DNA from: Pseudomonas syringae
Lineage (GTDB): Bacteria; Pseudomonadota; Gammaproteobacteria; Pseudomonadales; Pseudomonadaceae
Reading direction: 5' to 3'
Length of the DNA stretch: 64,000 nucleotides
Assembly: GCF_001698815.1 (NCBI RefSeq)
Contig: NZ_LGSI01000066.1
Coordinates: 1-64,000, forward strand
In this document: one piece after another, positions 47,263-54,413 of the stretch
Layout of the letters: each line of letters begins with the position of its first letter
How positions within the stretch are numbered: position 1 is the first letter of the stretch
Made by a program: the position numbers and the translations under genes
Notes under the pieces: generated by a model
Databases searched by the model: none
What the model saw: only the letters and a program-made list of their open reading frames with translations
What the model was told of the DNA's origin: nothing

Positions 47263-48147
47263 TTACAGATCTTTACCTTGCACGTAACCTGAACCCAGAT
47301 CCGCACCGGTAATCGGGTTGGCATCCGGATCGGACATGGTGCGTTCCTTCATGGTCAACAACACGGCTTCGTCATCTGTGGACAACTCGACCGATGCAGT
47401 ACCGTCACCGCCATCTACTGCAGGTTGTGGTGATTCCACATATTCCCACTCGTCGCCTTCATTCCACGGGCCACGCAGGTTCGGCTCGCCGGCAGACATG
47501 TTGAAGTACACGTTGGCGAACTCAGGCATGCCAGGCAGTTTTCCTTGCGGGAAGTTTGGCTGGATCGAGTGCAGCGCTTTTTCGAACGACTTCTGGTGCG
47601 CGATTTCCCGGGTCATCAAAAAGCCCAGGGCTTCTTTGATACCTGGATCATCCGTCACATTCATCAGGCGCTCATAAACGATCTTCGCCCGTGCTTCTGC
47701 CGCGATATTGGAACGGAAGTCCGCAGTCGGTTCGCCGATAGTATCGACATACGCAGCTGTCCATGGCACACCGGCCGAGTTGGTCAGTGGCGCACCGCAG
47801 CCGTAGAGCAAAGAAGTAATATGCGAATCATTGCCCGCGCCATTGATTGCACGATACAACTCACCTTCCTGCTGTACGCCTTCAGCCAACTGACCTTTGC
47901 CGCCACGGTTCAGCATGCAAATAATCGAACCGATGATTTCCAGGTGGCTAAGTTCTTCGGTGGCAATATCCATCAGCAAGTCTTTACGACCTGCATCCTC
48001 TTCTGCCAACGCTTGAGTGAAGTAGCGCGCCGCTGCTGCCAGTTCACCTTGAGCACCACCGAACTGCTCCAGAAGAAGATTGGCCAGACCTGGATCAGGT
48101 CGTGCGACACGCACGGTATACTGCAAACGCTTGTTATGAATGAACAT
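47263..48147 (-). CDS. Manganese (non-haem) catalase
   Basis: A 294-residue di-manganese catalase that removes hydrogen peroxide. Ferritin-like helices carry the metal ligands: the glutamate in GAQGELAAAARYF (about 36), EELSHLEIIGSI (about 68), and the E and H of TREIAHQKSF (about 180). The start at 48147 (MFIHNKRLQY) fits the family, with AGGA upstream. The C-terminal tail (about 225-294) is hydrophilic. Manganese catalases in Pseudomonas are often stationary-phase genes. Confidence 0.92.
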   Translation of the reverse strand: MFIHNKRLQYTVRVARPDPGLANLLLEQFGGAQGELAAAARYFTQALAEEDAGRKDLLMDIATEELSHLEIIGSIICMLNRGGKGQLAEGVQQEGELYRAINGAGNDSHITSLLYGCGAPLTNSAGVPWTAAYVDTIGEPTADFRSNIAAEARAKIVYERLMNVTDDPGIKEALGFLMTREIAHQKSFEKALHSIQPNFPQGKLPGMPEFANVYFNMSAGEPNLRGPWNEGDEWEYVESPQPAVDGGDGTASVELSTDDEAVLLTMKERTMSDPDANPITGADLGSGYVQGKDL

Positions 48148-48361
48148 GGTTCTATTCCTCATCTTATTAAGCCAAAACGGCTGTCGGTGGACATATGATT
48201 GGCCACAGTAAAGGGAGCACCGAGCCGTGAAAGCTGTTCAGCCAAGTTGACGAATGGTAGTAAAAAAATGAAATTGTGTAATAAGCGAACCCATTTGAGT
48301 GTTAGAAAAGTTGCTTATTTGTCGTTTTGAGTGATGGCTTCAGCGTGGCCGCGATGCCCGC

Positions 48362-48868
48362 TCAGGTATAAGCCAGAAGCCGACCGCACAGCACCACGCA
48401 CAGCCATAATCCGATTGATAACACAGCCTGGATCTTGGCGATTGCGGGTGCTGCGACACCTGTGTTCCAGCGATTGACCGAGCGGTATACGCCTATGTGG
48501 AACAGTGCGGCATTGATGCCTGCGAGGGCGATCAGGCTCAGTTTCAAGAGGAAAATGTTGTTGCCGGCGAAGTCATGGGGATGTGCCGAGAACATCATCA
48601 AACCGGCGGGAACAATCAGTAGCAGGGCGGCGAGGGCAAATCGCAACAAGTGCCGAGCCAGCGCCGTGACTGCAATTTCCCGCGATAGCCCGAGCACCCG
48701 CAGATCGAACATGACCACCGAGCCGACTAGTACTGCAAAGCCGATGATGTGCACTACTTCGACCAGCGGATAAAGCCACAGATCGCTGCGCATGGCCGAA
48801 CCCACCGGCGATGCGTCCAGCCAGTCCAGCCAGGTGTTTGCGCCTGAGCCTGTCGGGGCTGCATTCAT
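48362..48868 (-). CDS. DUF6644-type four-helix membrane protein
   Basis: A 168-residue inner-membrane protein with four helices (about 35-56, 70-92, 102-122, 140-165). Histidines lie in or near helices: VEVVHIIGF, ALARHLLRF, FSAHPHDF and ALFHIGVY. They could bind haem or copper. It overlaps the preceding DUF6152 gene by one base (TGATG), so the two are translationally coupled. The function is unknown; see the finding on this pair. Confidence 0.75.
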   Translation of the reverse strand: MNAAPTGSGANTWLDWLDASPVGSAMRSDLWLYPLVEVVHIIGFAVLVGSVVMFDLRVLGLSREIAVTALARHLLRFALAALLLIVPAGLMMFSAHPHDFAGNNIFLLKLSLIALAGINAALFHIGVYRSVNRWNTGVAAPAIAKIQAVLSIGLWLCVVLCGRLLAYT

Positions 48869-49218
48869 CAGCGCAACTCGGTGGTCTTGTCGCCAATGGT
48901 GATGCGTTCGGCGCGTAACTCTTCGGGTTTGCTGCGATTCTGATAGCCGACCACGCTGGCTTGATTCCCGACCTTGAGCATTTCCTTGGTCAGACCCCGA
49001 TTTTCCATACGGGATGGCGGTGCCAGTACGACATTCCAGGTTTTATCAGCGGTTTTGAGGCGCACGAATCCGTGAGGATGGGAGTAACCGGACTCTTCGA
49101 TCGTGCCTTGCAGCTGCAATGCCTTGCTGGAGTCGTACTCGCTCCAGCCGTGATGGGCGAACGCAGTCGTAGCAACCAGTACTGCGGACAATCCAACGCA
49201 CTTGAGCATGCCTTTCAT
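48868..49218 (-). CDS. DUF6152-type periplasmic protein
   Basis: A 116-residue secreted protein. A signal peptide (CVGLSAVLVATTAFA) is predicted to be cut just before HHGWSEYD, so the mature protein would begin with two histidines. The rest is a small beta-rich domain (LQLQGTIEESGYSHPHGFVRL) of OB/NOMO type with a further HPH motif. It is coupled to a histidine-containing membrane protein downstream. No function is established. Confidence 0.78.
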   Translation of the reverse strand: MKGMLKCVGLSAVLVATTAFAHHGWSEYDSSKALQLQGTIEESGYSHPHGFVRLKTADKTWNVVLAPPSRMENRGLTKEMLKVGNQASVVGYQNRSKPEELRAERITIGDKTTELR

Positions 49219-51169: not shown

Positions 51170-53497
51170 TTAGAACCGGTAATTGAGCCCAAGCGTCAAC
51201 GACCGCTCAGGTGCCGGTTGACGGCCCCAGGGGCTGGTGTCGATGCCGCGGAAGTAATACTCGCGGTTGAACAGGTTGCTGACCCCGGCCGAGGCGGTCA
51301 GCAGGCTGTGATCCTGGAGTTTGAACTCACGCTCGATCGCGGTATTCCACACCCAATAGGCCGGGAGCTTGCCCACCGAAGCCGTCGCGTCTTCGTCACC
51401 GGAATTGGCGGCGTCGGTGTAGGCGCTGCTGACGAACAGGCCGTCAAGGCTGTAGGTCCAGTGCTCGGCGAAGCGATAACGGCCGTCGACGTTGAACTGG
51501 TTTCTGGAGGCGAACGGGACTTCGTTGTCCTTGAAGGCGCCGTTGCGCTGTTTGGCATCGAGGTAGGCGTAGCTGGCGTGCAGGTCGAGGTCGGGCAGCG
51601 CGGCCGGGGTCCAGAACACTTCGGTCTCAATGCCCTGGTGACGGGTGCTGCCAAGGTTGTCGAAGCGGTCGGTGGTCGCGTTGAAGACGATCTGGTCGCT
51701 GAAATCGATACGGTACAGACCGGCGTCCACCCGCAGACCTTGCCATGGCGTATAACGCACGCCGGTCTCGTAGTTCCAGGCCAACTCGGCGCCGACGTCA
51801 CCTTCCTTGACGATCTGCGTGACCTGCGGTGGACGCAGGGATTTCTGCGCGTTGGCGTAGATGAACCAGTCATCGCTGGCCTGGAAGCCCACGGTCAGGC
51901 CGGGCAGCCACTCTTCTGATTTGTTTTCATGCTGGAACCCGGTGATGCCGTCGTCGTAGTTCATGCGCGCGTTTTCGTAACGCACGCCCGGCGTAATGGT
52001 CAGCCGGTTGTCGAGCAGGCCGATGGCGTTGCTGAGGTAAAAGGCCTTGGCATCGTCGTCGAACGTCCAGTCGCGGAACGGCGTGGTGGTGCCTGTGGCG
52101 AGGCTTTGGCGATTGACCTTGTAGTCGATGTCTTCCTTGACGTAACGCGCGCCCAGCAACCAAGTCTGGCTGAGGCTGTCACCATCGATGCTCATGCTCA
52201 GGCGCGGTTCAGTGCCCCAGACCTTGAAGTCGCGCGGGCCGTCCTGCTTGGTCACCGCCGCGCCGTCCGGGGTGAAGGGCAGGCCGACCACGAAGTTGCG
52301 GTAGCTGTTGTGAGCGAAGTTGGTCCAGCTGAATTCTACCGAATCGAACGGGCCCATCGCGCCCAATTGCTGGGTGTAGGTGCCCCAGACGCGGTCGGTA
52401 TCGCCTTCGAAGCGGTCCAGTGGGCGGGTCGATTGGCGTGGGTCGTCCTTGTAATCCTTGACGCTGAGGGCGCCGGCCAGGTCCATGTCGGCCTTGTAAT
52501 GCTGCACGCCGAAGCTCAGGTCGCGGTCATCGTCGATGTTCCATTGGCCCCGCAGGCGATAGTTCTGGATATCGGTGTCGGAATGCTCGCGGGCGGTTTC
52601 ACCATTGATGGTGTTGAGGTCCAGTTGCAGGCCGAAGTTGTCGGTCAGGTAGCCGCCGGTGCCGACGTAGGTGTCCCACAATTGGCGGCCGCCGGCGTTG
52701 AACGTGGTGCGTTCCTGCAAGGTGGTTTCCCATTCCTTGGGAATCGGTTTGCTGATGAAGTTGATCACCCCGCCGACGTTGTTCGGGCCGTATTGCACGG
52801 CGGCGCCACCGCGCACGATGTCGATCCGGTCGACGGTCGCGAGAGTCACCGGGAACAGCGACAAACCGGTCTGGCCGTAAGGCGCGAGGGCCAGGGGAAT
52901 GCCGTCGGACAAGGCCTGGACCCGGCCGCTACGGCTTTCATACAGGCCTCTGACGGAAATCTGCGGCAAGGCACCGGTGCCGGTTTCGTCGAAGATTTTC
53001 ACTCCGGGAACCCGTTGCAACGCATCGTCGACGCCGCGCACGCTGGCTTTTTTCAGGTCTTCTTCCTTGACCATCGAACGGCTGCCGGGGTAGGTGAGGA
53101 CTTCCGGGTCCGTTGCGCCACCGAGCACGTCGCCCTTGATCACCATTGGCGCGATGTACTGGACTTCGGGCGGTTTGGCGGCCACCGGTTCCTGTGCCGG
53201 GACGATGATGAACGTGTGCTCATCGCGCACCCGGGATTGCAGGCCGCTGTGGTCGAGCAGTCGCGACAAGGCTTGTTGTGGTGTGTAGCTGCCCTTGACC
53301 GCTTTGGTGGTTTTGCCCGCAGTAATGTCGCTGGCAAAGATGATCTGCACCGACGATTGCCGCGCCAGGGCATTGAGTGCCTTGTCCAGGCTGGTGCTCG
53401 GCAGGTCGAGTTCGACCTTGTCCTGGGCCTGCGCCGACAGGGCGAACAACAGGCTGGTGGCGAGGACGGACAAAGGCAAATGCCGGCGGTGCTTCAT
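51170..53497 (-). CDS. fecA: TonB-dependent receptor with signalling domain, FecA-like (ferric dicitrate)
   Basis: A 775-residue outer-membrane receptor. After the signal peptide (LLFALSAQA, cleavage near 24) comes an STN signalling domain (about 30-100; LDKALNALARQSSVQIIF). The plug follows (about 135-255; KKASVRGVDDALQRVPGVKIF and PYGQTGLSLFPVTL), then a barrel ending LGLNYRF. The plug sequence APYGQTGLS resembles FecA of P. aeruginosa and E. coli. Genes for FecI and FecR lie upstream on the same strand, as expected for surface signalling by ferric citrate. Substrate assignment is by similarity only. Confidence 0.88.
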   Translation of the reverse strand: MKHRRHLPLSVLATSLLFALSAQAQDKVELDLPSTSLDKALNALARQSSVQIIFASDITAGKTTKAVKGSYTPQQALSRLLDHSGLQSRVRDEHTFIIVPAQEPVAAKPPEVQYIAPMVIKGDVLGGATDPEVLTYPGSRSMVKEEDLKKASVRGVDDALQRVPGVKIFDETGTGALPQISVRGLYESRSGRVQALSDGIPLALAPYGQTGLSLFPVTLATVDRIDIVRGGAAVQYGPNNVGGVINFISKPIPKEWETTLQERTTFNAGGRQLWDTYVGTGGYLTDNFGLQLDLNTINGETAREHSDTDIQNYRLRGQWNIDDDRDLSFGVQHYKADMDLAGALSVKDYKDDPRQSTRPLDRFEGDTDRVWGTYTQQLGAMGPFDSVEFSWTNFAHNSYRNFVVGLPFTPDGAAVTKQDGPRDFKVWGTEPRLSMSIDGDSLSQTWLLGARYVKEDIDYKVNRQSLATGTTTPFRDWTFDDDAKAFYLSNAIGLLDNRLTITPGVRYENARMNYDDGITGFQHENKSEEWLPGLTVGFQASDDWFIYANAQKSLRPPQVTQIVKEGDVGAELAWNYETGVRYTPWQGLRVDAGLYRIDFSDQIVFNATTDRFDNLGSTRHQGIETEVFWTPAALPDLDLHASYAYLDAKQRNGAFKDNEVPFASRNQFNVDGRYRFAEHWTYSLDGLFVSSAYTDAANSGDEDATASVGKLPAYWVWNTAIEREFKLQDHSLLTASAGVSNLFNREYYFRGIDTSPWGRQPAPERSLTLGLNYRF

Positions 53498-53573
53498 GGA
53501 CGGTGTTCCTTGGAAAGTGGGGTCTGCCTTACTAGCCGCCACGGGTGCGGAAAAACCCTACCTCTGTCGGAAA

Positions 53574-54413
53574 TTATTTTTTCGCCGCCTTGCGCCGCAC
53601 ATGCGTAGTGCCATCGGCCTCGGTGTTGAGGCTCAAGGGCAGGATGCTCGGCAGCAGGTTCAACAAGTCTTCGACGTTACGGTTATCGAACACGCCGCTG
53701 ATCGGCAGGCTGGCCAAGCTCGGGTCATCGAGCACAATAGACGGTTTGCGGTAGCGCTGGATTTGCCCCAGCGCCTCGGCCAGTGGCGTGCGGTCGAAAA
53801 TCAGCCGATTGTCCTTCCAGGCAATGGCGGCCTCGGTGTCGACGGCGAGCGGTGGTTGTAGCTGGTTTTGCCGCACATCGACTTGCTGCCCCGGCACCAG
53901 TTGCACGGTGCGCCCGGCATCGGCGGTGGTGCCCACGCTGACAGCGCCACGCACCAGCGTCACGCGCACGGCATCCTTGAGGTGGCTGACGCTGAACAGT
54001 GTGCCGAGGACGTTGATTTGGGTGGTGCCCGCGTCCACGCGGAACGGTCGGATTCTGGTCTTCGACACATCGAACAGCGCCTGACCGGACTCCAGTTGCA
54101 CATGCCGGGAACGCAGATGCCAGGCGACCGTGGCCCGGGAGTCGCTGTCCAGGGTCATGCGACTGCCATCGGCGAGATTCAATACCCGGCGCTCGCCGAC
54201 CACCGTATGGAACTGCTCGCTGTGATAGGCCGGATCGACCCAGGCCAGCCCCGCGCCGAGCATCACCAGCAACATCGCGGCACCCAGAGTTTTGCGCGGT
54301 TTGCGCGGCGTAGGTGTCGGCAACGGGAAGCGATTGCGCAAGTCTTCGCGATGGCGTGCGAGTGCTTCATCTTCACGGGACAGTGGCGTTTTTGGGGTGC
54401 GCGTGGGGCTCAC
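53574..54413 (-). CDS. fecR: FecR-type anti-sigma factor/sigma regulator
   Basis: A 279-residue single-pass regulator that carries the FecA signal to FecI. A membrane helix (about 44-60, LGAAMLLVMLGAGLAWV) is followed by the periplasmic FecR domain (about 70-170; GERRVLNLADGSRMTLDSDS) and a STN-interacting C-terminal part. The cytoplasmic N-terminus is only about 42 residues and lacks the usual tryptophan-rich DUF4880 segment. It starts with GTG in GTGA overlap with the fecI stop. Confidence 0.88.
   Translation of the reverse strand: MSPTRTPKTPLSREDEALARHREDLRNRFPLPTPTPRKPRKTLGAAMLLVMLGAGLAWVDPAYHSEQFHTVVGERRVLNLADGSRMTLDSDSRATVAWHLRSRHVQLESGQALFDVSKTRIRPFRVDAGTTQINVLGTLFSVSHLKDAVRVTLVRGAVSVGTTADAGRTVQLVPGQQVDVRQNQLQPPLAVDTEAAIAWKDNRLIFDRTPLAEALGQIQRYRKPSIVLDDPSLASLPISGVFDNRNVEDLLNLLPSILPLSLNTEADGTTHVRRKAAKK

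Follow-up and report, generated by a model that had tools for sequence, protein, structure and literature searches.

What does a small exported protein that appears to begin with two histidines do next to a four-helix membrane protein? The question is raised by two adjacent genes of Pseudomonas syringae whose products belong to the Pfam families DUF6152 and DUF6644, located in the 64,000-nucleotide stretch of DNA analysed here (referred to below as the window). In Pfam scans, the two products match PF19649 and PF20349 with 59.7 and 35.2 bits, respectively (cut-off 27 for both), and the genome contains one match to each family. NCBIfam holds no family for either protein, and a search of one literature library found no paper that names DUF6152 or DUF6644. 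The reading we favour, at a probability of about one half both for the relay and for copper as its cargo, is that DUF6152 and DUF6644 constitute a two-component relay by which a metal, most likely Cu(II), would reach the inner membrane from the periplasm. Excerpts of PMC8424229 describe bacterial copper entry as still elusive and CopD-type proteins as its leading candidates; were copper the cargo, the pair would add a new carrier fold and a new transporter branch to copper uptake and supply a function for two Pfam families. The features of the locus are as follows.

48868–49218, minus strand: DUF6152 gene, 116-aa precursor and 95-aa mature protein (open reading frame and PF19649 match)
49156–49218, minus strand: predicted signal peptide, residues 1–21 of DUF6152 (sequence, and Ala at –1 in relatives)
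49150–49155, minus strand: codons of mature His1-His2 of DUF6152 (HH in 86 of 90 Pfam-found relatives)
49072–49077, minus strand: codons of Pro27-His28 in mature numbering, the third conserved His of DUF6152 (PH in 86 of 90)
48362–48868, minus strand: DUF6644 gene, 168 aa, four long helices in the model (open reading frame and PF20349 match)
48749–48751, minus strand: codon of H40, the invariant His in helix 1 of DUF6644 (alignment of relatives)
48866–48870, minus strand: TGATG stop/start overlap of one base, from DUF6152 into DUF6644 (sequence)

A manganese catalase gene (47263–48162, minus strand; PF05067, 317 bits) lies 200 bases downstream of the DUF6644 gene on the same strand; manganese catalase is absent among the 40 most shared neighbour clusters listed around DUF6152 loci. 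Open reading frames at 51170–54413 (minus strand) resemble, by sequence judgement only, a TonB-dependent receptor that includes a signalling domain, and a regulator of the FecR type.

Three histidines in the mature DUF6152 protein

The DUF6152 precursor starts with a signal peptide, MKGMLKCVGLSAVLVATTAFA, that ends in TAFA and whose predicted removal leaves HHGWSEYD as the mature start, as the initial annotation had proposed. The cut after residue 21 was placed by a crude script, not by SignalP. Among 90 distinct DUF6152 proteins, the residue before the first His position is Ala in 88, Ser in one and Thr in one, and residue –3 is Ala in 76, as expected if the signal cut sits directly before His-His. 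These 90 proteins come from Pfam-driven searches in which the motif was not selected for, close relatives being included. The family sample yielded DUF6152 matches in 36 of 148 genomes, and the phylum sample in 42 of 398.

On conservation of the leading histidines, the point at which the initial annotation had considered itself refutable, the family is clear: His-His is present in 86 of the 90 proteins and Pro-His at mature positions 27–28 in the same 86, and the exceptions also lack a nearby DUF6644. Five further listed DUF6152 places, fetched later, all carry HH and PH. His28 is found in 165/165 proteins outside the group of exceptions (a number that includes the pattern-selected set) and in 0/4 inside it; beside the leading histidines, G3 is retained in 146 and W4 in 144 of the same 165. 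All three histidines persist even in relatives that share as little as 16% identity with the protein from the window. They are the fully conserved putative ligands; a conserved Trp, W40, is also present and a conserved Met pair is absent.

The pattern-driven set, in which 79/79 distinct DUF6152 proteins carry HH and PH, is left out of the conservation argument, since the search pattern HHGWSEYD favoured HH (L031–L110); HH in alignment A1 is likewise not counted because our own selection forced it. As a base rate, we took a pool of 950 non-redundant, crudely called neighbour proteins, 114 of which have a crude signal peptide; His-His follows the cut at +1/+2 in none of these 114, and His at +1 occurs in two.

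Co-occurrence of DUF6152 with DUF6644

Across the 398 genomes, Pfam detects DUF6644 in 29 and DUF6152 in 42 with an overlap of 29 (Fisher 2.6e-34, kinship ignored). A more sensitive DUF6644 profile finds the partner in 12 of the 13 remaining DUF6152 genomes, giving 41/42 in total and leaving G157, whose DUF6152 has HH, as the only DUF6152 genome with DUF6644 by neither Pfam nor profile. Seen from the other side, 35 of 40 DUF6644 places lie within 5 kb of a DUF6152 gene, and the remaining five are spread over three loci in which DUF6152 was not found. When 75 Pfam-driven DUF6152 loci are viewed with ~5 kb flanks, DUF6644 is present in 56; the remaining 19 comprise four DUF6152 copies without the histidines and 15 with HH, of which 14 are in genomes having DUF6644 elsewhere and one is G157. 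The link between histidines and partner is not strict.

BLAST clustering of neighbours places DUF6644 in 52 of the 75 Pfam-driven loci and the next neighbour cluster in 10; with 80 pattern-found loci added (155 in total), the values are 131 and 15. Because no other cluster recurs nearly as often, the pair usually travels as a unit across unrelated contexts. Some DUF6152 relatives with a ~35-residue insertion (L332:4298-4855, L333:4424-4966 and L334:4244-4801) are annotated as hypothetical, so that pair counts based on annotation are too low. DUF6644 directly follows DUF6152 in most loci, lies upstream in L179, L180, L184 and L185, and is present as two tandem genes in some relatives. In plasmid neighbourhoods, DUF6644 or its tblastn match is the next gene in 7/8; the eighth, a Croceibacterium plasmid, has two DUF6152 genes and no named DUF6644 within 6 kb. 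Three Hyphomicrobiales plasmids carry an unannotated DUF6152 (HHGWP, NPH) beside DUF6644 (profile E 5.6e-14 or better), and a fourth, unannotated record has the same arrangement by eye.

The four exceptions (L206, L207, L208 and L209) belong to one genus; where the other proteins have HH they carry SQ, SP or NP, and mature residue 28 is Gln. W4, W40, G54, G63 and G70 are retained in 4/4, and G17 is replaced by Ala in 4/4; since the former residues are all retained, the fold is probably kept. There is no DUF6644 within ~5 kb in any of the four loci, and the DUF6644 profile finds none in three of the four genomes. The fourth genome (G056) also encodes a normal HH DUF6152, and its single DUF6644 adjoins the HH copy. 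The joint loss ties the histidines to the partner: DUF6152 and DUF6644 behave as one unit, in which the three histidines are kept or lost together with the membrane protein. The loss of all three histidines is probably one evolutionary event, given that the co-loss is confined to one genus. The histidines might instead have a structural role, or one confined to export or to docking of the partner, without binding metal or cofactor, and the good conservation of the adjacent G3 and W4 fits such a role; their persistence in the most divergent relatives, and their disappearance together while the core stays, make this reading very improbable in our view.

A natural fusion joins the two families. 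In L156 (3472–5178, minus strand), a single 569-aa open frame contains DUF6152 (15–102), a middle domain and DUF6644 (446–568), the last scoring 19.0 with Pfam, below the cut-off of 27, and 118 bits with our own profile. In L154 (4178–5320, minus strand; same genus as L156), DUF6152 and the middle domain occupy one gene and DUF6644 is separate. The middle domain of L156 is related to a family of ~270 residues (cluster 9) that is found near HHSF/HHAF-type DUF6152 genes (L138, L139, L141, L145, L147, L149, L150, L151, L155 and L187). Four members of this family were scanned and match no Pfam entry at E 0.01; it is possibly a third component of the system. The L156 arrangement resembles that of YcnJ, described in part of PMC12362106 as a CopC-CopD-YtkA fusion.

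Predicted folds and the CopD/HemJ superfamily

The AlphaFold2 model of DUF6152 (pLDDT 94.1, pTM 0.86), which is less sure for residues 1–10 (mean pLDDT 79), predicts a small OB fold. Its structural neighbours are OB folds such as PriB (5wqv_B; Z 10.4, 1.7 Å over 73 residues), and LysRS entries lead the Foldseek results. CopC and CusF are absent among the 50 structural matches listed for the model, which by itself excludes neither. Homology of DUF6152 to CopC was considered and rejected: the CopC profile (PF04234) is unmatched, a Pfam scan of the window protein at E up to 1 lists only PF19649, and CopC is a beta-sandwich whereas the DUF6152 model is an OB fold. A PDB search with the DUF6152 sequence alone returns nothing, and PDB searches with the DUF6152 and DUF6644 profiles return a single row apiece, at chance level (E 0.47 and 0.42). 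The N-terminus of a common OB fold can be distant from the loop that connects strands 1 and 2, which would favour two sites rather than one shared by the leading histidines and His28.

DUF6644 is modelled as four long helices (pLDDT 93.9), in agreement with the four-helix membrane partner originally envisaged. The several histidines ascribed to that partner were an overstatement, since H40 alone is invariant: its column contains only His or gap among 159 distinct relatives, whereas H124 is His in about half by weight and H73, H96 and H98 vary. H40, G89, K109, W155, G162 and R163 are invariant in A2 (53 DUF6644 sequences). Lys and Arg residues are more abundant at the ends of helices 1–2 and 3–4 (2.87 and 3.47 per protein) than at 2–3 and the C-terminus (1.81 and 1.0), a distribution which suggests that both termini lie outside and that H40, K109 and R163 are on the periplasmic side.

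Profile-profile alignment of DUF6644 with a CopD set gives 94.7% over 136 columns, in which the helix-1 histidines fall on each other. Long-type and short CopD subsets give 70% and 65%, and HemJ gives 55% over 87 columns, again with helix-1 His on helix-1 His. The controls, 16 DsbB and 8 cytochrome b561 sequences from which wrong-frame or short ones were left out, give 0.3% and 0.1%, and YebZ alone (0.4%) is not a match. Alignment A4 holds 19 of the 22 CopD-hit loci with strands noted, L227, L230 and L236 being omitted for wrong frames. In scans of single sequences, 2 of 53 DUF6644 relatives are listed for CopD PF05425 at E up to 0.1 and one of these exceeds the cut-off (36.1 vs 32.1 bits), none matches HemJ PF03653 (UPF0093) at the same E, and the window protein is unlisted for both models at E up to 1. 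From the CopD helix-1 His-W-x-GG motif, DUF6644 keeps the His invariantly, lacks the W and the second G, and retains one G. Long CopD proteins have eight helices.

As judged from these profiles, DUF6644 is distantly related to the CopD/HemJ superfamily. We make the assignment to the superfamily only, because the CopD model also matches HemJ: the HemJ of the genome that contains the window (G000:C52:33377-33646) scores 40.8 bits against the Pfam CopD model, whose cut-off is 32.1. 'CopD' labels on short four-helix proteins may mislead. No solved structure is a convincing relative of DUF6644: Foldseek finds nothing for it at E 0.001, and the VIA rows fall in the range that this second tool calls uninformative for helical bundles.

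The relationship to HemJ raises the possibility of a haem or tetrapyrrole relay, in which the DUF6152 histidines would carry haem to membrane-bound DUF6644, with His40 as axial ligand and Lys109 and Arg163 at the propionates; if haem is the cargo, the relay would be a new one. DUF6644 has the size and the four helices of HemJ, an invariant helix-1 His and a conserved Lys, and the 55% profile similarity, although weak, points the same way, as does HemJ being a b-type haem protein according to the title of a paper cited in PMC11662147. TonB receptors occur near some loci (partly by eye), and cytochrome bd (7d5i_A; Z 9.7, 3.3 Å over 135) is among the structural rows, in the zone that is uninformative for helical bundles. 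Against haem, the CopD set aligns better than HemJ (94.7 vs 55), though the CopD subsets alone reach only the 70 and 65 given above, and W23 and P31, invariant in HemJ, are without counterpart in DUF6644. To our knowledge, HemJ has no exported partner and no N-terminal histidine is known as a haem-binding device. On balance we regard haem as a doubtful cargo.

A putative copper relay

The copper relay that we prefer would operate as follows. DUF6152 would be exported, cleaved right before His-His and folded as a small OB barrel, in which the free N-terminus, His1 and His2, perhaps joined by His28, would bind a metal ion, Cu(II) being the likeliest, much as a histidine brace does. The ion would then be handed to DUF6644, the four-helix relative of CopD and HemJ in the inner membrane. 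Its putative acceptor site would surround His40, in the half of helix 1 that is probably periplasmic, with Lys109 and Arg163 near the same side, and DUF6644 would pass the ion inward. That metal is passed at all is presumed, as probable, because the pair is nearly always in the same genomes, the carrier is tipped with histidine and the partner is related to CopD. N-terminal histidines are known to serve in copper binding, as set out in part of PMC10952591, and excerpts of PMC13344008 state that YcnJ needs H24 of its CopC domain and H295 of its CopD domain under copper limitation and that H295 is conserved in YebZ, where it is important for copper uptake. From its position, we guess that YcnJ H295 corresponds to DUF6644 H40.

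Genomic context, like the HemJ link and the presence of CopC and a CopD-model match in the window's own genome, counts against copper. No copper gene is named in eleven annotated plasmid neighbourhoods, and scans of ten proteins encoded at HHSF-type and fusion loci reveal none. Upstream footprinting of 36 of 37 chosen Pseudomonas loci, with the start codon taken further upstream in three of the 36, reveals a ribosome-binding site and, by eye, no shared palindrome. CopC is present in 20/42 DUF6152 genomes vs 96/356 others (Fisher p 0.007); we do not use this as support because kinship and genome size are uncorrected and a few weak CopC hits are included.

A different divalent metal, Ni, Co or Zn, might travel through the same relay, bound by the N-terminal amine and the histidines. 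Sites of this composition are not exclusive to copper, NikM/CbiM-type sites being a case in point, and the lack of a named copper gene in the neighbourhoods examined would suit such a cargo. Those neighbourhoods name no gene for nickel, cobalt or zinc either, and the related family CopD is tied to copper (PMC13344008, in part), so that we consider another metal unlikely. A redox pair seems less likely still: DUF6152 would act as a copper oxidase or reductase with a histidine brace built on an OB scaffold, and DUF6644 would supply or accept its electrons in the membrane. The attractions of this reading are that the DUF6644 superfamily includes HemJ, an oxidase, that a PQQ-type dehydrogenase neighbours one HHSF-type locus (L139) and a cytochrome b561-YceI protein another (L138), and that histidine-brace proteins can be oxygenases (PMC10952591, in part), but no enzyme gene is widely recurrent beside the pair.

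Returning to the copper relay, its closest analogue is CopC-CopD, the comparison drawn in the initial annotation. In both systems an exported protein with an N-terminal His accompanies a membrane protein with a needed helix His, the genes are adjacent and natural fusions exist. They differ in that DUF6152 is predicted to be an OB fold with His-His and a third His and without a CopC profile match, while DUF6644 has four helices and is without the W-x-GG motif. The odds are about even that the pair works like CopC-CopD in its copper version, and it is not CopC or CopD itself; the likeness of DUF6152 to CopC would be one of function, the predicted fold being different. The earlier functional guess was reasonable and is supported in part: its partner is related to CopD at the level of the superfamily and a fusion exists, whereas its carrier is no CopC, and it is to be corrected by a predicted non-CopC fold, the addition of His28 and a single key histidine in the partner.

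Other carriers share single elements of the design. DUF1775 (YcnI), formerly a domain of unknown function, binds Cu(II) at an N-terminal His, possesses a conserved Trp, comparable to W40 of DUF6152, and often neighbours CopD, according to parts of PMC8424229 and PMC12362106, which makes it a precedent in favour of copper; it differs in having a cupredoxin-like fold in those texts, whereas DUF6152 starts with two histidines and is paired with DUF6644. CusF and SilF carry metal, as DUF6152 would, and share with it small size, export, a conserved Trp and, by prediction, the OB fold; an excerpt of PMC10656224 calls them the only OB-fold proteins with metal binding as their sole function. They differ from DUF6152 in binding Cu(I)/Ag(I) through a His/Met/Met/Trp site at one end of the barrel, without an N-terminal His.

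The genome to which the window belongs has two CopC genes with a CopD-model match beside one of them, and the pair is therefore no stand-in for CopC/CopD. Tentatively, and with somewhat less confidence than in the relay itself, we suggest that DUF6152 and DUF6644 form an unrecognised proteobacterial copper system, in which an N-terminal His on an OB barrel would feed a four-helix, half-size CopD relative beside, not instead of, CopC/CopD. We know of no other N-terminal histidine device on an OB barrel, and of no DUF6644 partner of CusF or SilF.

Two minor observations concern members that depart from the pairing. At L366:6186-7187(+), a tandem DUF6644 pair occurs with no DUF6152 in the 13 kb fetched and adjoins ORFs resembling, by eye, a TonB receptor and a PepSY membrane protein, a context that is a possible hint of an iron or haem link. 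Among the DUF6152 paralogues without the histidines, the N-terminus looks more hydrophobic, and, judged by eye, a protein encoded beside the L208 copy is similar to Hsp70-like proteins.
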